Source: a virus
Length of the DNA: 25,711 bases
Direction: 5' to 3' (one strand)
IMG/VR virus record: IMGVR_UViG_3300035698_005000
Span: 1-25,711 of that record
Each line of letters opens with the position of its first letter. Within the stretch, counting starts at the first letter, position 1. The notes below the pieces were generated by a model, which ran no database searches, had not been told where the DNA came from, and saw nothing but the letters and a program-made list of their open reading frames with translations. A program made the translations under genes and the position numbers. Shown piece by piece: positions 6,021-22,617 of the stretch.

Positions 6021-6488
6021 ATGAAATTGGACGCTTTTAGAACCATTATTAGAGAGGAAGTAAGATCCGTAATTAAAGAAGAATTATCTTTGATTATGCA
6101 AACTCCTATTACAGAAACTAAGACTGTTAAAAAACCAGTTGTTGAACAAAAAACAACAAAACCTTCATTTGCCGAAATGGTAAACGAAGAAACAGTTCAA
6201 CAAACTCAAACACAAACCCCTATTGCCCCAACCGGTAACCCAATGTTAGATATTCTAAATGAAACTGCTGCTGCGGGTGAATGGAGAAATCTAAATGGAG
6301 GATATAACTCATCCCATGCTGCTGGATTCGCAGGTGGTATGTCCGGAGGAGCTACTAAAGTAGTAGATAGTGTAGATCAAATGTTAGCTGGAAAACAAGG
6401 AGCAACAGACATTACCCAAGTATCAATTGATGCTGTACCTGACTTTTCAGGTGTAATGGGTAAATTAAAAGAAACAGGTAAAATATAA
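6021..6488 (+). CDS. Small protein with amphipathic N-terminal helix and Gln/Thr-rich linker
   Basis: A 155-aa protein of unknown function. Residues 1-26 (MKLDAFRTIIREEVRSVIKE and on) form a strongly amphipathic charged helix, a kind of N-terminus that recurs in small proteins of T4-like marine phages. A Lys/Thr/Gln/Pro-rich disordered linker follows (30-75), then a Gly/Ala-rich segment (80-120, including AAGFAGGMSGGATKV) and a short C-terminal domain. The start is supported by a 12-bp gap after the upstream stop and by the conserved-looking N-terminus. No Shine-Dalgarno is present. It overlaps gp25 by one base (TAATG). Position suggests a baseplate assembly or minor virion part. The N-terminal I-R-E at residues 10-12 fits the (L/I)xE prohead-protease consensus, but that is weak evidence on its own. 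Confidence 0.55.
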   Translation: MKLDAFRTIIREEVRSVIKEELSLIMQTPITETKTVKKPVVEQKTTKPSFAEMVNEETVQQTQTQTPIAPTGNPMLDILNETAAAGEWRNLNGGYNSSHAAGFAGGMSGGATKVVDSVDQMLAGKQGATDITQVSIDAVPDFSGVMGKLKETGKI

Positions 6489-6898
6489 TGGCGTACATAG
6501 TAAGAAATGTTGATATTCTAGACCTAAATCCTAGTACGGGTGTAGGTATATCCTTACCCTTCAATGGTCCTACAGGTATCAATACAACTTACACTACTAG
6601 AGATGCTATTAAATCTAACCTATTAAATTTTATTTTAACAGGTAAAAAGGAACGCGTAATGAATCCTAGCTTTGGTTCTGGGGTTAGAGATTTACTATTT
6701 GAACCAATAACAGAAGATATAACGGATCAAGTAGAAAGTTTAATTTTTGGAGGGGTTGAACAATATTTTCCACAAGTGCAAATTAGAAGTTTAACTGTTG
6801 ATTTAACACCTGATAGAAATACTATAACAATATATCTTAATTATTCTATAATCAATACGAATATAGAAGATGAATTACAAATCAACCTCAACACATAA
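6488..6898 (+). CDS. 25: Baseplate wedge subunit gp25 (GPW/gp25 family)
   Basis: Baseplate wedge protein of the GPW/gp25 family. It nucleates sheath attachment at the baseplate together with gp6 and gp53 in T4-like particles. The 136-aa length matches T4 gp25 (132 aa). The family signature is clear: AIKSNLLNFILTGKKERVMN, directly followed by PSFGSGVRDLLFEP (about residues 37-70). A helix then reads DQVESLIFGGVEQYFPQVQI, and a C-terminal strand pair contains TITIYLNYSI. The gene overlaps both neighbours by one base (TAATG at each end), which favours coupled translation with gp6, its structural partner. The old name gp25-like lysozyme is historical; no enzymatic role is implied. This is one of the most secure calls in the window. 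Confidence 0.95.
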   Translation: MAYIVRNVDILDLNPSTGVGISLPFNGPTGINTTYTTRDAIKSNLLNFILTGKKERVMNPSFGSGVRDLLFEPITEDITDQVESLIFGGVEQYFPQVQIRSLTVDLTPDRNTITIYLNYSIINTNIEDELQINLNT

Positions 6899-8775
6899 TG
6901 GCAGAGTCTAAACAAATACAATATCTAAACAAAGATTTTGATGGATTCAAGCAAAAATTGCTTGAATTTGCCCAAGTTTACTACCCAGATACTTACAACG
7001 ACTTTTCAGAAACATCTGCTGGGTTAATGTTAATTGAAATGGCTTCATATATTGGAGACGTTTTATCTTTTTATGGTGATAATCAAGTTCAAGAAAACTT
7101 TTTAGAGTTTGCTAAACAACGAGATAGTTTATTAGCTTTAGCTTATAACCATGGGTATTTCCCTCAAGTAACAAACGCCGCTACTGTTGATGTAGACGTA
7201 TATCAAACTATACCCGCTACTATTGATGGGGGTTTAGTAACACCTGATTTCAACTATGCTATGATAGTTGAAGAAGGAGCACAGATTCAATCTGCAAACA
7301 ATACTTCTGTATTTTTTTATATAGAGGCCAAAATAGATTTTACAATTTCAGGAAGTGGAGATCCAACTGATATCTCCGTATATTCATTAGATTCAAGTAA
7401 TCAACCAAACTTCTACCTTCTTAAAAAGAAAGCAAGAGCAACAGCCGGTGATTTAAAAACAGCAGATTTTACTTTTACTACACCTGAAAGATTCTCTACA
7501 GTACAAATAGAAGATACTAACATTATTGAAATAGTTAAAATAACAGATAGTGATGGTAATAGGTGGTATGAAGTACCTTACCTTGCTCAAGAAACTATTT
7601 TTGATCCAACAACTAACATAGCTCAAAACGATCCCGAACTATATCAATATAATGAAACTACACCTTACCTTTTAAAAATTAAAAAGGTACCACGTAGATT
7701 TATAAAAAGATTTAAAACAAACAATTCCTTAGAATTACAATTTGGACCTGGAGTTTCATCTAACCCTGATGAAGTAATTACCCCTAATTCAGATAATATA
7801 GGTTTAGGATTACCTTACGGTCAAGACAAACTTACAACCGCTTGGGATCCTGCTAACTTTCTATATACCAGAACATATGGTTTAGCTCCCTCAAATACTA
7901 CTTTAACAGTAGAATATTTAACAGGAGGTGGAGCTACATCAAATGTTACCGCCCAATCCTTAACTATCTTATCAGATGGGAATATAACATTTTTTGGAGA
8001 TAATTTAGATTCTATATTACAGGATACAGTTAGAAATTCTTTAGCATTTACAAATACCAAACCCGCTTTAGGAGGAGGAGATGGAGATACAAACGAAGAT
8101 ATTAGGAGAAAAGCTATAGCTCAATACCCAACCCAATTACGTACTGTAACAAAGGACGATTATGCTATTAGAGCTTTATCTTTACCTTCAAAATATGGTA
8201 TTTTATCTAAAGTATATGTTACTCAAGATAACTCAATATCACCTAATGTATCTACTCCTGAAAGTTCATATGATACTAATGCTTTATCATTATATGTTCT
8301 TTCAAGAAATAGTAATAATAACCTAACAATAGCAGATCCTGCCTTAAAGAATAATTTAACTACTTATTTAGGTGAATATAGAATGGTAACGGATGCTGTT
8401 ACTATTAAAGATGCTTTTATTATAAACATTGGGGTTAATTTTGACGTTATAATACAACCTAACTTTAATAATAGAGTAGTATTAAATATTATCATAAACG
8501 CTTTAACAACATATTTTGATATAGATAAGTGGCAAATAAACCAACCTATCTTAATTAACAACGTTCGTAACGTAATTGACAATATAGAAGGAGTTCAAAC
8601 TGTTAAAAAACTAGAACTTGTAAACAAATCTGGAACTGACAGTAACTATTCAGAATTTGCATATGACATTAATGGAGCAACTATAAATGAAGTTCTATAC
8701 CCATCATTAGATCCAAGCGTATTTGAATTAAAATTCCCTACTACAGACATACAAGGACGAGTAGTAACAAACTAA
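6898..8775 (+). CDS. 6: Baseplate wedge subunit gp6 (Baseplate_J-like)
   Basis: Baseplate wedge protein corresponding to T4 gp6 (660 aa; here 625 aa). The N-terminal part has the family hallmarks: YLNKDFDGFKQKLLEFAQVY, then DFSETSAGLMLIEMASYIGD and FYGDNQVQENFLEFAKQR (about residues 10-77), followed by HGYFPQ. The centre is beta-rich. Around residues 390-430 the block ALGGGDGDTNEDIRRKAIA with TVTKDDYAIRALSLP matches the Baseplate_J core, in which gp6 dimers form the inner wedge ring. The C-terminal 150 residues (NRVVLNIIINALTTYFDIDK, then GVQTVKKLEL) are also typical of gp6/gpJ. It directly follows gp25 with a one-base overlap, as expected for partners in the wedge. Secure call. Confidence 0.93.
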   Translation: MAESKQIQYLNKDFDGFKQKLLEFAQVYYPDTYNDFSETSAGLMLIEMASYIGDVLSFYGDNQVQENFLEFAKQRDSLLALAYNHGYFPQVTNAATVDVDVYQTIPATIDGGLVTPDFNYAMIVEEGAQIQSANNTSVFFYIEAKIDFTISGSGDPTDISVYSLDSSNQPNFYLLKKKARATAGDLKTADFTFTTPERFSTVQIEDTNIIEIVKITDSDGNRWYEVPYLAQETIFDPTTNIAQNDPELYQYNETTPYLLKIKKVPRRFIKRFKTNNSLELQFGPGVSSNPDEVITPNSDNIGLGLPYGQDKLTTAWDPANFLYTRTYGLAPSNTTLTVEYLTGGGATSNVTAQSLTILSDGNITFFGDNLDSILQDTVRNSLAFTNTKPALGGGDGDTNEDIRRKAIAQYPTQLRTVTKDDYAIRALSLPSKYGILSKVYVTQDNSISPNVSTPESSYDTNALSLYVLSRNSNNNLTIADPALKNNLTTYLGEYRMVTDAVTIKDAFIINIGVNFDVIIQPNFNNRVVLNIIINALTTYFDIDKWQINQPILINNVRNVIDNIEGVQTVKKLELVNKSGTDSNYSEFAYDINGATINEVLYPSLDPSVFELKFPTTDIQGRVVTN

Positions 8776-15563: not shown

Positions 15564-16223
15564 ATGGGATACTTAAATAACACTACCGTTACTGTTGATG
15601 CAATTCTCACCAAAAAAGGGCGTGAGTTATTAGCTAGAAACGACGGTTCTTTTAGAATTACACAATTTTCATTAGGAGATGATGAGATTGATTACACTTT
15701 GTACAATCCAAACCACCCATCTGGGTCAGCATTTTATGGAGAAGCTATTCAAAATATGCCTATTCTAGAAGCATTCCCTGATGAAACACAAACAATGAAG
15801 TATAAGCTTCTTACCTTACCAAGAGGTACAGCTAAACTTCCTGTATTAGAATTAGGATATTCAACTATCACTCTAAAACAAGGTGCTTCATTATCTATCA
15901 CTGCTCAAACATTAAACTACCTAGGTACAGATTCAACATTTGAAGCTAGTGGTTATGTAGCAACTATTGGGGATTCTAGAACTTTATCTAAATTCGAAGG
16001 TGTAGGAGTAAATACAGCAAATGCTACTCAATTAAATTCAACTAGTACAGTTGGTACAAACGTATCCCGTACCGTAATTGGAACTACGATTAATTTAACA
16101 GCAACTACTGTAAATACACTATTCGGTACCTCAAACACTTTAAACACAATTCTAACCGTTACTGGTAGAGATTCAGGAGCAAGATTAACTGTTCCATTGA
16201 ATATCACTAGAGTAACATCTTAA
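15564..16223 (+). CDS. Conserved phage structural protein, 219 aa
   Basis: A 219-aa protein with a highly structured N-terminus (MGYLNNTTVTVDAILTKKGR, then ELLARNDGSFRITQFSLGDD) that I recognise as a recurring family in T4-like phages of this type. No function is established to my knowledge. Residues 40-100 include EIDYTLYNPNHPSG, AIQNMPILEAFPDETQTMKY and LTLPRGTAKL. The second half (110-219) is a Ser/Thr/Asn-rich beta region with GTSNTLNTILTVTGRD. The distance to the upstream stop (41 bp) and a candidate late box make this the first gene of the distal tail unit. Abundance-type composition and the strong N-terminal pattern suggest a major or repeated tail component. An Ig-like C-terminal domain is possible. 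Confidence 0.65.
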   Translation: MGYLNNTTVTVDAILTKKGRELLARNDGSFRITQFSLGDDEIDYTLYNPNHPSGSAFYGEAIQNMPILEAFPDETQTMKYKLLTLPRGTAKLPVLELGYSTITLKQGASLSITAQTLNYLGTDSTFEASGYVATIGDSRTLSKFEGVGVNTANATQLNSTSTVGTNVSRTVIGTTINLTATTVNTLFGTSNTLNTILTVTGRDSGARLTVPLNITRVTS

Positions 16224-16234
16224 GATAATAATAT

Positions 16235-17281
16235 ATGAGCTTTGTAAGTTTACAATCAAGTGATTTTGTAGTAAGTGCGGACTCTATCACATCCACATTG
16301 TGGACAGGTGGTGCCCCGATCTTAAACCAATTCTTTACTTCATCACAAACATCATCATTTAATACTTTCTTAGATGTTTACCAAACAGGATCTTTAAGAT
16401 CAGATGCTGAAGTACAATTTTCAATTGCCTACGGGCAAGTAGAAGGGTCAGGTTCTGCTCCTTATAATAACCTAGTTACAGGAAGTTCACCTTCTAGAGT
16501 AACATATGGTCAATTTAGAACATTAGTTAACGGAGACGAAAATACAAACTTCAACTTTGGAGTTGGAAATACAGATTCAAGTGATGTTTATGTACTAAAC
16601 GTTAACAGAGCAAGATATAAAGAAAAATTATTCCCTGGAACCTTTAACTTAGTATTATCTGGATCAGATGGAACAGAAGTATCTCGTTTACAATTAACAG
16701 ATAATTCAAAAGACATAACTACATTAACTTATACAGACGCAGGTCGTGTATTTGATATTGTAAGTGGTACAAATGGTAGCGCAACTAACTCTACACCTGT
16801 ATCTGCTTCAACAGTTACTCCTGGGTATACACCTTCAGGATCATATGGTAAATTTTTACCGGATGTAGGTTTAATCTTACTTAACCCAAGAGCATTACAA
16901 TTATCTGCTTCATTAGGTGGAGCAGGATTAGTAATAAATGGAGATTTAACTAATGATGCCTCTGTAGCTAACCATAGTGCTTTATTTGAATCAATTCAAT
17001 TAGCACAAACATTTTCACTTAATTCTGAAGAAACTATAACATCTGATTATATATTCGTAAGGATTAACAACTCTGATTTTAACTACTCAACTAACCCTTC
17101 TATGATAAGTGGTAGTGGAGAGTTTGTATATTCAAGTCTAATCAACAACCCACAAACATTTGTAACAACAGTTGGTTTATACAACGATTCAAATGAGTTA
17201 CTATCAGTAGCTAAATTATCTAAACCGTTAGTGAAAGATTTCACTAAAGAAGCACTAGTACGTGTAAAATTAGACTTTTAA
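16235..17281 (+). CDS. Structural protein whose C-terminal domain recurs in a later small gene
   Basis: A 348-aa protein, mostly beta. The N-terminal part (MSFVSLQSSDFVVSADSITS) is followed by QTSSFNTFLDVYQTGS, then YGQFRTLVNGDENTNFNFG and a middle rich in Ser/Thr (175-215). Residues 265-348 form a distinct module (FNYSTNPSMISGSG, then FVTTVGLYNDSNELLSVAKL) that is clearly homologous to most of the 99-aa protein at 22318. No Shine-Dalgarno precedes the ATG. The gene lies 11 bp after its neighbour and 3 bp before the 1097-aa gene. Function is unknown. Position in the distal tail block and the reused module suggest a connector or fibre-base protein. Confidence 0.65.
   Translation: MSFVSLQSSDFVVSADSITSTLWTGGAPILNQFFTSSQTSSFNTFLDVYQTGSLRSDAEVQFSIAYGQVEGSGSAPYNNLVTGSSPSRVTYGQFRTLVNGDENTNFNFGVGNTDSSDVYVLNVNRARYKEKLFPGTFNLVLSGSDGTEVSRLQLTDNSKDITTLTYTDAGRVFDIVSGTNGSATNSTPVSASTVTPGYTPSGSYGKFLPDVGLILLNPRALQLSASLGGAGLVINGDLTNDASVANHSALFESIQLAQTFSLNSEETITSDYIFVRINNSDFNYSTNPSMISGSGEFVYSSLINNPQTFVTTVGLYNDSNELLSVAKLSKPLVKDFTKEALVRVKLDF
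17027..17278 (+). repeat. C-terminal module, copy 1 (paralogous to the 22318 gene)
   Basis: Residues 265-348 share the order FN.(T).NP... then VTTVGLYND.NELL.V.K...PL with the 99-aa protein. The DNA of the two copies is well diverged, so the duplication is old rather than a recent repeat. Confidence 0.75.
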
Positions 17282-17284
17282 TGA

Positions 17285-20200
17285 ATGAGTTTTGCATACA
17301 AAAAACTAAATCCATCTGACGTAAAGTCTGTTCCCTATGTTGCTAATAAGCAATATGAGTTCTTATCATCATCATATGAGGCAGAAGGAATACAGACTTA
17401 TATAGGGGAATATTTCCCTATTACAACTGCAAATCCTTTTGATCCCCAAAATGATAACCAAACAACAGACGGAAATTATAGACGACTAATTTATGAATCA
17501 ATTCGTCATTTGTATTACCAAAACTACGTTACAAAATCTTCCTTAGATCAAGAAACAGAATCCGAAGATTTAATATACCCTAAGAATGTAGGTCAGTTTT
17601 GGCACTCATCTTCATATGATAACTTTCTACAAAACACAATGGTGTCTGGGAATTTTAACCAGAACCATAGAAGTTTTCCTTATTTTGAAAGTATAGAATA
17701 TAGATTTGATAATGTATCTTCTTCATTATATGGTACTGCTATATACTTTATAGAAAATGCTGCTAAAATTAGAGTAATTTCTATTCCTAAAGACATATAT
17801 GGGAATGGAGTACAACCCTCTACTTTTGAACTAGCTGGAGACAACTTTCTTATCAAAGATGATGGTCAAGGAAACTTATTTGACTATGCTCCTGTAATAT
17901 CTAACTATTCAGAACAAGTATACTCAGGAGATGCCTATGGGTATTCAGGAGATAATTCACTTTTAATTCCTGTAGGAAATGTATTTTATAATCAGGGTAT
18001 AGCTGTAATTACAAATGTAGATTATATTTGCTTTATAGAAGGAAACCCTGTAGCTAGAAACAATTATATTGAAATATTAAATACCCAATTAGATAAAACT
18101 ATTTTAACGTTAGAAGATGATTTTGATGATTGTGGGTTTATATTAACGGGTTCAATAAATACATTTGCTAACCCTGGTTTTACCTTCCCTGACTACACGG
18201 TTAGCTCTAGTGGTGATTTAATTATTACTCCTAACGAAACAAGTGTTGTACCTGGGGAATACCAACTATATTATAACGTAGAAAACAATTTTGGGCTAAC
18301 AAGCAACACAGGTTCAGTAGTATTAAGATTAACATCTGAGCCATTAACTTCTAATATCTTATCTTTAACAGAATCTTGTTATCAAAATACAGGAGATATA
18401 TCTGCTTCAGTAACATTCTCGGTAGATCAAGGTGTTCCACCTTATAGTTGGTCAATAGACAATACAAATTATACCCCTATAACCGATCTATTCCAACCAA
18501 TAGTATCGGCTTCAATATTTCCATCACGCTCTGTTGTTCTATCAATAAGAGACATAGATGGTACTATTGTAACACAATCCCTTAATACTGCTTTCTTACC
18601 TATAGATGGTAAATTATGGCAAAATGACGTATCATTCTGCGGTACAAGCGATGGATATATTATAGCGAGCGCAAGTGGCGACTTACCTATTACTGCGTCT
18701 TTAAGCGCCTCATTTAACGGTGGTGTTGAACTACCAAATACAATGAGTAATTTAGAGGTAGGTACTTATACTGTATACTTTAAAGATGCTAACAATTGTA
18801 CTACAACTTCACAAATTGAAATAACTAAAACTATTCCTGTAACAGCTAGTTATGTTTCTGAACATATAGATTGTTTTGGAGGCTCAACAGGTCAAATTTA
18901 TTTATACCAAATTAATAGTGAAAGCTTAGAGGAAAGAGACCAAGAATTATACTTAACAGGAGGTACAGAGCCCTTTACTTATGAATGGACAGGACCAAAT
19001 AGTTTTATAACCACTTCACAAGATATTATAAATGTTCCTTCTGGCACATACCTATTAAATATAGAAGATGCTGATGGGTGTTTTTATGGGTTTACGTTTG
19101 ATTTAACTTCTTCTGAACAAATATTATATACAGCTAGTATAGATTATATTTCAAGTGCTTACACTAGTTCATTACTTATATCTAATTTAACCGGAGGTAT
19201 AGCCCCTTATAGTGTTACTGCTTCTACCTTACTTTCAAATTATTTTTTAGAAGTTACAGAAAGCGGTACATTCTCAATTCCCTTAATAGCCGATGAATTA
19301 AATGCAGGTTCATGTAGTGTTTCTTTAATAGATTCACTGGTCTGTAGTTCGGTTACTTCAAGTGTAGAAATATTTGGAAGAACTTGGGAATTAACAGGCT
19401 CAAATTGTGAAGATGGAACGGGTAGTTTAATTGGGGAACAAGTTGGACAACGTACCTTAAACTTCTATACAAATGAAGAAACAGGGTCAGAATGGGTTAC
19501 TGTAACGATCCGCTCAGGTAGTGAATCACCAATAGAACTAGCTACATCAAGCAGTTTAACTGGTAGTTTAACATGGAGTTACAATGATACTTTATATATA
19601 GACATATACACAGGGTCGAATGATAATTTCTATTTAAGAAGGGAATTTAGCGGCTCAAATTGGGAAGAAACAGGACCTGCTAGTATAACCGGTAGTGAAA
19701 TTACATCTTCTACTATAATAGTAGGTAATGCAAATATGGTACACTTTGAGGAAAACTTAGATGTTTCTCTAGCATTCGGACCGGATTATGGAATTAAATC
19801 ATTACATTTAACTGCTAGTAAAGCAAATACCGAAAACTTAACTACAAACATTAACTTTAAGTTTGATAAACAAATACCACTATCTAAAATTAGAGATAAT
19901 TTTACAGGTAGTGCTTCAAACTTAATATTAACAGGTAGTGATGGAAGTGGTTCAAATTTTATAGCTCGTAACGACGAATTTATAGATATAGAATATGGTA
20001 ATACTGGAAGTTATATAGGGCCCAATAAATTACTCTTTAGAGAAGACTATGCTTTTGGTAATATCATAAACACAATATCAGGATCAAGCGTAGAATATAC
20101 TAGTGGATCCATATGGAGTGGATCAGTTTCTGCAAGTATATTTGGTGGAGAAAATGCACAATATTTTACTCAACGTACGGATAAAATATGGCTTTTAACA

Positions 20201-20578
20201 GCAGATGTAGATAATATTGGATTCTTTGAAGCTTATTCATATACTGATGCAGATCAATATACTAATGATCCTATAGGAACTAGAACAAATACTACTTATA
20301 CTCATAGGGAATATAAAATATTTGCAGGTTCTCAAAGAATGGAAAATGATCTTATGTATATAGGAATTATACATGAGGATGAGTTTGCAGAAATGCCTTT
20401 ACCTGCAGGATTAGGTGGGGGAGAAATATTTAATAGAAAACTTGAAAACTTAAAAGATGTTAACCGTATCTATTATTTATTCATGTCACCAATAGGATCT
20501 TCAGATTCACAGGCTGAATTAGATAGTAGAGCAATAGCAGTAGGACAATACTTTATAGATAATGTAATATATGGCTAA
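17285..20578 (+). CDS. Large tail/adhesin protein with SprB-like repeats
   Basis: A 1097-aa virion protein. The N-terminal region (1-290; starts MSFAYKKLNPSDVKSVPYVA) is likely the attachment domain. Residues about 305-350 form an Ig-like strand set. Residues about 358-695 are a series of domains of about 75-85 aa of SprB type. The best copy is 526-608: DCFGGSTGQIYLYQ, LTGGTEPFTYEWTG, VPSGTYLLNIEDADGC. Another at 447-513 has FCGTSDGYIIASASGDLPIT and LEVGTYTVYFKDANNC. Residues 700-1097 are beta-rich with many TGS turns and end in a conserved-looking domain (EYKIFAGSQRMENDLMYIGI, then NRIYYLFMSPIGSSDSQAEL). SprB repeats are known from the gliding adhesin of Bacteroidetes. Here they probably form stacked modules of a receptor-contacting tail fibre. 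The gene overlaps the next by 8 bases. Confidence 0.75.
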   Translation: MSFAYKKLNPSDVKSVPYVANKQYEFLSSSYEAEGIQTYIGEYFPITTANPFDPQNDNQTTDGNYRRLIYESIRHLYYQNYVTKSSLDQETESEDLIYPKNVGQFWHSSSYDNFLQNTMVSGNFNQNHRSFPYFESIEYRFDNVSSSLYGTAIYFIENAAKIRVISIPKDIYGNGVQPSTFELAGDNFLIKDDGQGNLFDYAPVISNYSEQVYSGDAYGYSGDNSLLIPVGNVFYNQGIAVITNVDYICFIEGNPVARNNYIEILNTQLDKTILTLEDDFDDCGFILTGSINTFANPGFTFPDYTVSSSGDLIITPNETSVVPGEYQLYYNVENNFGLTSNTGSVVLRLTSEPLTSNILSLTESCYQNTGDISASVTFSVDQGVPPYSWSIDNTNYTPITDLFQPIVSASIFPSRSVVLSIRDIDGTIVTQSLNTAFLPIDGKLWQNDVSFCGTSDGYIIASASGDLPITASLSASFNGGVELPNTMSNLEVGTYTVYFKDANNCTTTSQIEITKTIPVTASYVSEHIDCFGGSTGQIYLYQINSESLEERDQELYLTGGTEPFTYEWTGPNSFITTSQDIINVPSGTYLLNIEDADGCFYGFTFDLTSSEQILYTASIDYISSAYTSSLLISNLTGGIAPYSVTASTLLSNYFLEVTESGTFSIPLIADELNAGSCSVSLIDSLVCSSVTSSVEIFGRTWELTGSNCEDGTGSLIGEQVGQRTLNFYTNEETGSEWVTVTIRSGSESPIELATSSSLTGSLTWSYNDTLYIDIYTGSNDNFYLRREFSGSNWEETGPASITGSEITSSTIIVGNANMVHFEENLDVSLAFGPDYGIKSLHLTASKANTENLTTNINFKFDKQIPLSKIRDNFTGSASNLILTGSDGSGSNFIARNDEFIDIEYGNTGSYIGPNKLLFREDYAFGNIINTISGSSVEYTSGSIWSGSVSASIFGGENAQYFTQRTDKIWLLTADVDNIGFFEAYSYTDADQYTNDPIGTRTNTTYTHREYKIFAGSQRMENDLMYIGIIHEDEFAEMPLPAGLGGGEIFNRKLENLKDVNRIYYLFMSPIGSSDSQAELDSRAIAVGQYFIDNVIYG
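18356..19369 (+). repeat. SprB-like domain array (about four degenerate copies)
   Basis: Codons for residues 358-695. Copies 2 and 3 (447-513 and 526-608) show the full pattern: Cys near the start, G.(S/T).G, a GG/GDxP..(Y/I) core, then GTYt(v/l)...DA(D/N).C. The flanking copies, about 358-430 (ESCYQNTGDISASV, GVPPYSWS) and 612-695 (LTGGIAPYSVTAS), are degenerate. There is no DNA-level identity between copies. Confidence 0.7.
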
Positions 20579-22307
20579 TACAGGCTTCATAATAAATAAT
20601 ACAGTAAGACAATTCTTTTCTACAGGACCTGACTCAGGTAGTGCTGTAGCGACGGGATCTGATGTAGATTTAACTGTATCACCATTTTCAGCAAGTTTAG
20701 AAGATACCGATTACTATAATAGGGCATACGAACCAGATTTATGTGAACCCGGATTTGAAACTTGTGTTGTACCTTTATTAACTAGTTTAACAACAGGATC
20801 TCGTAGGGGAAGATTTGCTATAAATTACGTAACACAATCTTCTTTTAATTTTCCTATTAACATAACAGCGTCGGTATCTAACACCCCTGACTTTTCAGTT
20901 AGTGAATCATTTTATGCTGCCACAGGTAGTGGACCTATTCCTGTTTCTTCTTCATTTGTAAGTGGAACTATATATTTTAGAGCATTTATGTCTTGTAGTG
21001 GACCAGATCCATCTCCAAACTCAGATCCTTTATCTTTTACATATGACCTTTTACCCCCTCCTTTAGAGGCGGGTAGTGTAAATGTTGTATTTAAAAACAA
21101 CTACTCTTCTACTATGGAAGTTTTACTTCGTAGCACTAGAGGAAACGCTACTTATAGAATCAGTCCTGGACAATCCGTAACTTATGATTATAGTACATCA
21201 CCTGACCCTGGTGCTTGGACAGCAACAGGTCGTTCAGAAGATTTAAATATTACTATAAAAGGAGGAGCTAGAAGCGCTTATGGAAATTATGTTCAAAGAG
21301 TAACTAATGGTGTAGAAAAAGAAACATATACAACTGGAGGAGGGTTTAATAGTCCTAGTAATAGAAATGAAAATAGTTCAACATTTGCCGCTGATAAAGG
21401 ATTAGGTTTTACTATAAGACAATTAGTATTACCTAAAAATGGTACTACAACAACAACCACTTTTACATTACTAACAGTACCACCACCACCTCCACCAATC
21501 CCACCCCCACCACCACCCCCACCACCACCAGGACCTAGTGGACCACCACCTGTATATGTACCTCAACCAACAATTAAGTTTGGTTCAGCTATATTTGATA
21601 GTGAGGAAGCAGCATGTACTAATTTTAATGAAAATTATAGAGCTCAAACTTACTATCAATTTGGCAATGTCTTATATTTAAATAGAACTGATGCTTTATC
21701 TAGTACTAGAGGTACATTCCCAAATACTGAAAACTATATATTATATGGTGATGGAACTTACTATGTAGTTAATAAAGATGGTAGACTACAAAATACAGGA
21801 GCGTGTAGAAGACCTTCTATAACACTATCAACATTTAGAGGTGCTTATGCTACTCAAGAAGAAGCCTGTGCTAGACAAAAAGTAAATGGTGGAAATACTA
21901 CTTATGAAATAGGTAAAATTAGAGTATCTGGTAGATTTCCTATATATGAAGGTGTAAATGAAAGAGGTGGTAAAAACGCTATAGTAAGTGGAGGAAGAGT
22001 AGTTGCATATGAAACGTGTGGAACTGAATTAACTGACGTAACTTATAGTTCAACTGGATTTGCTTCTTCTTATGATTTAAATAACCCTTCTACTATAAGC
22101 CCTAGACTTTTAAACTATATTTGTAATTTTAGCGGAACTGAAACATACTCCATAGGTCCATCAGGAACAGTCTATTACGGGTTTAATTATAAAGGAGGAA
22201 AGTACAAATATGTACCTTTAACCTTTAATAGATGGTATAAAACCACAGACGGATCTTTTGTAAGTTTTGATCGAGGTCAAGTAACTGGAACTGCTAACCC
22301 TTGTTAA
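20571..22307 (+). CDS. Tail-tip/adhesin protein with polyproline hinge and three Cys-bounded modules
   Basis: A 578-aa protein in three parts. Residues 1-165 (start MANTGFIINNTVRQFFSTGP) are a beta-rich head with Cys58/Cys65 and a LLPPPLEAG boundary. Residues 167-300 are a second domain that ends in a Thr run (about 292-297). Residues 304-332 form an almost pure proline stretch, the likely rigid spacer. The C-terminal 240 residues contain three related modules, each bounded by cysteines: 337-412 (EEAACTNF to LQNTGAC), 423-483 (QEEACARQ to AYETC) and 494-578 (LLNYICNF to GTANPC). Overall design, an anchoring domain, a stiff hinge and repeated small terminal domains, fits a receptor-binding protein at the fibre end. 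The repeat family is not one I can name. The ATG overlaps the previous gene by 8 bases. Confidence 0.65.
   Translation: MANTGFIINNTVRQFFSTGPDSGSAVATGSDVDLTVSPFSASLEDTDYYNRAYEPDLCEPGFETCVVPLLTSLTTGSRRGRFAINYVTQSSFNFPINITASVSNTPDFSVSESFYAATGSGPIPVSSSFVSGTIYFRAFMSCSGPDPSPNSDPLSFTYDLLPPPLEAGSVNVVFKNNYSSTMEVLLRSTRGNATYRISPGQSVTYDYSTSPDPGAWTATGRSEDLNITIKGGARSAYGNYVQRVTNGVEKETYTTGGGFNSPSNRNENSSTFAADKGLGFTIRQLVLPKNGTTTTTTFTLLTVPPPPPPIPPPPPPPPPPGPSGPPPVYVPQPTIKFGSAIFDSEEAACTNFNENYRAQTYYQFGNVLYLNRTDALSSTRGTFPNTENYILYGDGTYYVVNKDGRLQNTGACRRPSITLSTFRGAYATQEEACARQKVNGGNTTYEIGKIRVSGRFPIYEGVNERGGKNAIVSGGRVVAYETCGTELTDVTYSSTGFASSYDLNNPSTISPRLLNYICNFSGTETYSIGPSGTVYYGFNYKGGKYKYVPLTFNRWYKTTDGSFVSFDRGQVTGTANPC
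21480..21551 (+). repeat. CCA/CCN-rich polyproline tract
   Basis: A low-complexity, nearly G-free, C-rich run encoding residues 304-327 (mostly Pro, with one Ile and a GPSG break). It stands out sharply from the AT-rich surroundings. The complementary strand is made of GG/GGG groups. A repeat of this kind can shrink or grow by slippage, changing hinge length. Confidence 0.9.
21579..22304 (+). repeat. Three Cys-bounded C-terminal modules
   Basis: Codons for residues 337-578. Each module has an early Cys preceded by a short acidic or hydrophobic stretch, a Tyr/Gly-rich strand region (YYQFGNVLYL; TTYEIGKIRV; TYSIGPSGTVYYG), a later Gly-rich turn and a closing Cys. Copies 1 and 2 are most alike (EEAC start). 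Copy 3 is longer and more diverged. Confidence 0.55.
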
Positions 22308-22317
22308 AAAATAAATT

Positions 22318-22617
22318 ATGGCGATAGAAGTAGGCCCAAATAAAATATCATTCAAAAACAAATATACTGTATATGAAAATGAAATCATATGCACTGTATC
22401 GGAGAATGAATTTAATATGACACAAAATCCAACTATCTCAACAGATAGTTCGGGTTCACTACGCGATTTCGCTACGGGTTCTAACTTTAAACCTTACGTT
22501 ACTACAGTAGGGTTATATAATGATAACAACGAACTACTGCTAGTGGGCAAATTTGCTCAACCACTACCAATGTCTGATGTAACAGACACAACATTCGTAA
22601 TACGATATGATCAATAA
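22318..22617 (+). CDS. Small stand-alone paralogue of the 348-aa protein's C-terminal domain
   Basis: A 99-aa protein (starts MAIEVGPNKISFKNKYTVYE) whose residues about 10-99 align with residues 265-348 of the 348-aa structural protein at 16235. Common features are the FN.(T).NP start, the near-identical VTTVGLYND.NELL run, V.K and PL. It lacks the N-terminal region of the long version. It begins 10 bp after the adhesin gene and overlaps the nuclease gene by 11 bases. The most likely role is a small structural cap or connector that uses the same contact surface as the longer paralogue. I do not know the family's function. Confidence 0.65.
   Translation: MAIEVGPNKISFKNKYTVYENEIICTVSENEFNMTQNPTISTDSSGSLRDFATGSNFKPYVTTVGLYNDNNELLLVGKFAQPLPMSDVTDTTFVIRYDQ

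Follow-up and report, generated by a model that had tools for sequence, protein, structure and literature searches.

The repeat-carrying gene lies in a contractile-tail cluster

The window, by which we mean the whole stretch of viral DNA analyzed here (25,711 nucleotides; IMG/VR record IMGVR_UViG_3300035698_005000), is part of a contractile-tail cluster in which the genes for a gp6-like and a gp25-like baseplate protein are ordered as in Flavobacterium phage immuto (Table 1). A preliminary description, made from the sequence alone, had singled out positions 18356-19369 as SprB-type repeats in a phage virion gene; this stretch corresponds to aa 358-695 of a 1097-aa protein, here called FIB, in which four SprB-like units span aa 353-698. 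The gp6-like baseplate wedge, recognized by its phrog_219 match, is what would be expected of a T4-like contractile-tail phage, and a search for gp23 that covered sister records rather than the 25.7-kb window found it in 3 of 7. That FIB is a virion gene is likely from its slot in the tail cluster, in line with this part of the preliminary description.

Table 1. Features of the window discussed in the text, with positions in nucleotides of the window
Feature	Position	Strand	Evidence or remark
gp25-like baseplate assembly protein	6488..6898	+	46% to immuto baseplate assembly protein
Baseplate wedge, gp6-like	6898..8775	+	phrog_219, E 5e-17; 46% to immuto baseplate wedge
J219, 219-aa conserved tail-cluster neighbor	15564..16223	+	76% identity to immuto_163
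K348, 348-aa structural-type neighbor	16235..17281	+	50% identity to immuto_164
FIB, fiber-like protein, 1097 aa, repeat carrier	17285..20578	+	ORF; homolog in slot in 31/31 loci laid out (33 found)
FIB N-terminal conserved domain, aa 1-270, probable virion anchor	17285..18094	+	common to 33 loci
D1, beta-sandwich, not SprB type, aa 275-352	18107..18340	+	structure model; hhalign to SprB 3.6%
U1, weak SprB-like unit, aa 353-440	18341..18604	+	hhalign 86.8%; 10.7 bits
U2, SprB-like unit, aa 441-520	18605..18844	+	39.6 bits; hhalign 97.6%
U3, SprB-like unit, aa 521-610	18845..19114	+	46.1 bits; hhalign 99.1%
U4, weak SprB-like unit, aa 611-698, most variable part in window clade	19115..19378	+	hhalign 93.5%; 13.7 bits
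D6 and C-terminal region, aa 699-1097	19379..20575	+	differs from that of the L023-L028 clade
578-aa protein with proline run, variable companion adjoining FIB	20571..22307	+	
CT99, 99 aa	22318..22617	+	domain also C-terminal in homologs of K348 and in immuto_165

A scan of IMG/VR with the N-terminal domain of FIB found 33 loci, 31 of which were laid out. The order J219-K348-FIB was present in all 31, with CT99 downstream in 27; the other 4 end inside FIB. Among 50,697 phage records, tblastn (E ≤ 1) detected the N-terminal domain in 4, all of them immuto, a phage on Flavobacterium sp. LMO8. With an HMM of this domain, immuto_165 scored 61.4 bits and Microcystis phage Mel-JY01 gave a weaker match (30.5 bits, E 7.2e-8).

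The immuto protein (immuto_165; QQO92083.1, 357 aa, hypothetical) occupies the same slot as FIB and shares its N-terminal domain, which is followed by the CT99 domain; it therefore carries in one gene what the window splits over two. In the window (17285-22617), the sandwich string, the C-terminal region and the 578-aa protein lie between these two domains, in comparison with the immuto gene (L117:25018-26088). A search of immuto_165 for SprB gave no match, so the slot does not depend on the SprB module. The neighboring structural-type proteins of the window (16235-17281 and 22318-22617) have a C-terminal domain of about 100 aa in common, and four successive genes of the Microcystis phage (L118:23996-31162) end in that same domain.

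The host probably belongs to the Bacteroidota, as judged from sequence. The phylum is uncertain because the window's wedge resembles its counterparts in the Microcystis phage and in immuto about equally (45% and 46%, respectively, with 41% to a 484-kb uncultured phage), and because the N-terminal HMM finds Mel-JY01 too. A Shine-Dalgarno-like (SD-like) motif, sought with a simple pattern and no control, lies upstream of only 2 of 20 genes; scarcity of such motifs fits a Bacteroidota host, as weak evidence.

FIB is predicted to contain a string of beta-sandwiches

An AlphaFold model of FIB predicts sandwiches at aa 275-696, mostly at pLDDT 75-88, with both ends poorly modeled; the C-terminal model has a mean pLDDT of 49, too poor to name a tip. 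The best PDB matches of the sandwich string found by Foldseek were to GhpA of the bacterium Aureispira (E 5.7e-13). By VIA-align, GhpA (Z 8.9) is tied with cadherins (Z 8.6), and the comparison therefore shows tandem sandwiches and no more. SprB appears in none of the titles of the Foldseek and VIA-align matches listed, which says nothing either way. In BFVD, the best viral structural match (E 7.5e-17) is a protein that bears the name "SprB repeat [uncultured Caudovirales phage]".

Two units are of SprB type in their own right

Formal membership of the Pfam SprB family (PF13573) was not found for FIB, which scored 10.3 bits (E 0.57) with a cut-off of 28; no other family was listed in a Pfam scan at E ≤ 10. 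A six-frame search of the window raised the score to 15.2 bits (E 6e-4), which again misses the cut-off, and 10 of 27 FIB homologs matched at E ≤ 1, the best at 24.5 bits (E 2.1e-5) and none above the cut-off. Because the Pfam model, with 37 positions, covers less than half of the SprB repeat, a profile of the full-length unit was built from 238 non-redundant Flavobacteriales units of about 81 aa in three rounds, with zero phage sequences. The source of the bacterial SprB loci was a Flavobacteriales MAG together with genomes of its order, 20 of 40 being positive at E ≤ 1e-8; a genome scan had given two loci, a Flavobacteriales one that became the center of the bacterial set and one from Virgibacillus.

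With this unit HMM, FIB scored 85.9 bits (E 8.2e-26, Z=1000), distributed over domains at aa 363-402 (10.7 bits), 447-523 (39.6 bits), 523-619 (46.1 bits) and 633-696 (13.7 bits). Of the 27 homologs, 20 (window included) reached at least 49.8 bits, two scored 25.5 and 21.2, three scored 4.0 or less, and two were without a row. Decoys, comprising 540 shuffled and 27 reversed homologs, gave at most 7.2 bits per domain, and the 19 other ORFs of the window at most 4.3 bits. The preliminary description's claim of SprB-type repeats is thus borne out by U2 and U3; the PF13573 search that it had proposed stays below the Pfam threshold, and it is the full-length profile that recovers the repeats.

Profile-profile comparison by hhalign, using an alignment of 13 proteins with the window among them, extended the likeness to all four units (Table 1). 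Probabilities against SprB were at most 3.6% for D1, D6, two N-terminal pieces and the C-terminal region of FIB, at most 1.1% for four neighboring families and at most 11.2% for 100 column-shuffled unit profiles. U1 and U4 are placed with SprB solely by this comparison.

A comparison of the SprB profile with the PKD profile shows that the two are related (91% by hhalign). Among 60 bacterial PKD units (at least 25 bits with the PKD profile), one scored 26.6 bits with the SprB HMM, in an ORF with several SprB-like matches (locus L108), and the rest scored at most 18.4 bits; T4 Hoc reached at most 11.2 bits. The HMM scores of U1 and U4 fall inside this PKD cross-talk range. The PKD HMM gave at most 2.5 bits on FIB, and hhalign favored SprB over PKD for U2 (97.6 versus 51.7%) and U3 (99.1 versus 39.3%). 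U2 and U3 are therefore SprB-type in their own right; by HMM, U1 and U4 are not. The objection foreseen in the preliminary description, that SprB matches might be missing or the best ones be to generic PKD or Ig-like domains, fails for U2 and U3.

Two other explanations for U2 and U3 were rejected. Generic PKD identity is ruled out by the PKD HMM scores and the hhalign preference for SprB, and chance or low complexity by the shuffled and reversed decoys together with the column-shuffled profiles.

Two cysteine positions are present in 86% and 89% of bacterial SprB units. U3 retains both (C530 and C599); in U2 the second is exact (C505), and the first (C452) is one residue off its consensus place. 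U1 retains only the first cysteine and U4 only the second. The description of the repeats as protein-level copies lacking DNA identity agrees with the longest direct DNA repeat found, 24 nt at 75%.

Relatives share the N-terminus and exchange the remainder

The N-terminal 270 aa have a mean pairwise identity of 0.73 in the window clade (11 proteins) and of 0.81 in a second clade (loci L023-L028; 6 proteins). The lowest values are those of U4 in the window clade (0.41) and of the C-terminal region in the second clade (0.36); in the window clade, U2 and U3 vary less than U4. In three further loci (L030, L031 and L033), a Ser/Thr/Pro-rich tract replaces everything from unit 2 of the window onwards. 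Their FIB gene is without an SprB unit, and SprB units are found in a second gene, which matches PF13573 at 36.3 bits, above the cut-off, in L030 and at 27.9 bits, just short of it, in L033. This combination of a conserved N-terminus with an exchangeable remainder is, at the level of sequence, what would be seen in an appendage that is anchored at one end and swaps its outer parts.

The FIB proteins of loci L010 and L020 carry an insert of about 100 aa with GTHGGG and YYCxxHSxMGG motifs, in the D6 stretch and in U2, respectively; as it occurs at two different places, it is a further movable domain.

Age and origin of the units

Phage and bacterial units were compared in a tree made by a quick method from 129 units and 85 columns, in which 77 of 126 inner branches are open. 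It included 45 phage and 14 megaphage units (at least 25 bits), 60 of the 238 bacterial units and 10 of the 60 PKD units, with no Hoc or pb10 rows; 11 loci had been left out beforehand as near-copies or cut fragments or, for L004/L011, L012 and L031, to reduce its size. The tree splits PKD from the SprB units of phages, megaphages and bacteria with a value of 98. Unit 2 of the window clade, unit 2 of L023-L028 and a unit of the L030 second gene form one clade with a value of 96, and the unit therefore probably predates the clade split. Unless units were exchanged between phages, the SprB units were thus probably present in the phage group before its clades diverged; the old acquisition proposed in the preliminary description gains support from the same grouping. 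The phage units do not form one clade, but most forks are open and a single origin is compatible with the tree. The phylogeny of phage and host repeats that had been suggested as a check puts the phage units on the SprB side.

Acquisition of the units from a host is plausible and would make them bacterial in origin. Transfer may have run in either direction: the SprB consensus also matches Hoc-like profiles of the PHROGs database (phrog_2973, a Hoc-like decoration family, E 2.6e-10) and the decoration protein 5lxk (E 3.9e-5), which we take to be of the T5 type; a second PDB decoration protein, 8zvi, matches at E 1.5e-4. These matches, together with a weak one of phrog_2973 to the window (E 0.0063, covering only aa 557-692 of FIB, whose gene lies within the tail cluster) and the kinship of SprB and PKD profiles, favor a different history, in which the units come from the phages' own pool of Ig-like domains of the Hoc/pb10 type, their SprB likeness arises from similar beta-sandwich turns, and no adhesin was transferred. 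We consider this history unlikely: the bacterial profile scores U2 and U3 above T4 Hoc, the SprB cysteines are both present in U3 and one is exactly placed in U2, and the phage units stand among SprB units in the tree, albeit one built without Hoc or pb10 rows.

A proposed role for FIB

Our preferred reading, which we regard as reasonably probable, is that FIB is a fiber-like virion protein of a T4-like, immuto-related phage, with an N-terminus that docks, a stalk of SprB-type Ig-like domains and an outer part that meets the host; we infer the virion location, the stalk role and the contact sites. The conserved N-terminal domain would dock on the tail or baseplate, and the string of five beta-sandwich domains, among which four are divergent units of SprB type, would make an extended stalk. 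The fast-changing U4, the clade-specific C-terminal region or both may meet the host surface. The SprB units themselves are kin of the repeats in T9SS surface adhesins of Bacteroidota. Stalk and host contact are proposed by analogy with phage Ig-like modules: pb10-type modules have been proposed to bind bacterial carbohydrates (PMC5292684), and BACON/PKD-type modules of gut phages have been tested as adhesins to epithelial cells (PMC13370021).

The clearest units, U2 and U3, are not where change is fastest in the window clade, and contact surfaces are often the fastest-changing part of a protein. This bears on the suggestion, also raised in the preliminary description, that the units recognize or ride the gliding machinery, through putative binding to SprB tracks or SprB-bound glycans. 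Such a link is drawn because components of the gliding machinery have been put forward as receptors of Flavobacterium phages (PMC7345892) and SprB is a motile adhesin (PMC9127263). It is very improbable in our view, given that U2 and U3 do not lead in rate of change and given the failure of immuto, with its protein in the same slot, to give an SprB match. FIB-type proteins are specific candidates for testing the gliding machinery as a receptor of Flavobacterium phages.

SprB units in other virus records

A consensus scan of IMG/VR found at least 79 loci with SprB units (80 of 81 relatives; L123-L201), a lower bound from one scan and not a total of viral SprB loci; HMM matches were confirmed in all 79. 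Many of the proteins are of 700-1200 aa with 6-7 units, the maximum being 14 per protein, and in 7 of 13 proteins looked at the first unit starts at aa 13-20. Many proteins of these loci consist largely of SprB units, and a second gene with one or two units often follows. Neighbors weakly like the window's 1777-aa protein occur in 50 of the 79 loci by blastp (E ≤ 1e-3) and in 5 by HMM. HMM searches also found CT99-like domains in 13 loci, J219-like genes in 4, K348-like genes in 8 and a gp6-like gene in a single locus, but no gp25-like gene. From the 74 loci with a complete ORF, a set reduced for redundancy and size to 51 ORFs was scanned with Pfam: 50 matched SprB, 8 Por_Secre_tail and 1 CHU_C. 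Part of the 79-locus set is therefore host-like, or host DNA.

In BLAST searches of phage records at E ≤ 0.01, SprB units were found only in the megaphage records LR756502 and LR745206; at E ≤ 1, one run returned LR756502 alone and another added an Enterobacter phage (E 0.08), BLAST being weak for such units. The two records (L119:5416-10425 in LR756502.1 and L120:5029-7224 in LR745206.1) are "uncultured phage" sequences of about 640 kb that encode SprB and PKD proteins with the T9SS domain CHU_C; these are either cargo or stretches of bacterial DNA that entered the assembly.

The CHU_C proteins of the megaphages set a precedent for reading FIB, too, as a host-type T9SS-secreted adhesin carried by the phage as cargo, which we hold to be extremely improbable. 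Its C-terminus has no CHU_C or Por_Secre_tail match in Pfam or NCBIfam, so that a T9SS signal was not found by these searches; the only NCBIfam match, to Por_Secre_tail at 14.2 bits (cut-off 23), lies inside U3. The N-terminus, by eye, is unlike a signal peptide, and the gene is placed within the tail cluster.

The number of loci suggests a common theme in Bacteroidota viruses, with some of the at least 79 uncultured loci being host-like. By analogy, SprB repeats in virus contigs probably act as binding modules or as parts of a stalk. The broader idea that SprB-type units are a common building block of Bacteroidota-phage fibers, shared with T9SS adhesins and engaging host glycans or the moving adhesin track, is quite unlikely on present evidence. 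With these findings, the SprB unit would join the Ig-like modules borne on phage particles. They also show that divergent copies escape the short Pfam model.

Comparison with known systems

FIB has in common with the SprB proteins of Bacteroidota adhesins (PF13573; F. johnsoniae SprB) a unit of about 75-80 aa, the GG-PY core, the GTY...D..(G/N)C end and, in full in U3 and in part in the other units, the end cysteines. It differs from F. johnsoniae-type SprB in having four degenerate units below the Pfam cut-off, in its phage tail cluster and in that no T9SS signal was found. GhpA, the grappling hook protein of Aureispira, shares the sandwich string and is a bacterial appendage. T4 Hoc, T5 pb10 and the BACON proteins of gut phages have Ig-like sandwiches exposed on phage proteins, as FIB is predicted to have, but these are of another domain subtype. 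The capsid is the site of Hoc and pb10, whereas the FIB gene lies in a tail cluster. No paper on SprB units in phages, or on the 79 loci, was found among open-license PMC articles, screened mainly by title and opening of the abstract; one article that came up concerns bacterial toxins. UniProt already holds phage proteins named "SprB repeat", such as A0A6J5LD72 and A0A6J5LDA4 of uncultured Caudovirales phage (BFVD ranks 1 and 41), which are likened to FIB by name and structure score alone, and the units of FIB therefore fall within a known class of phage Ig-like modules.
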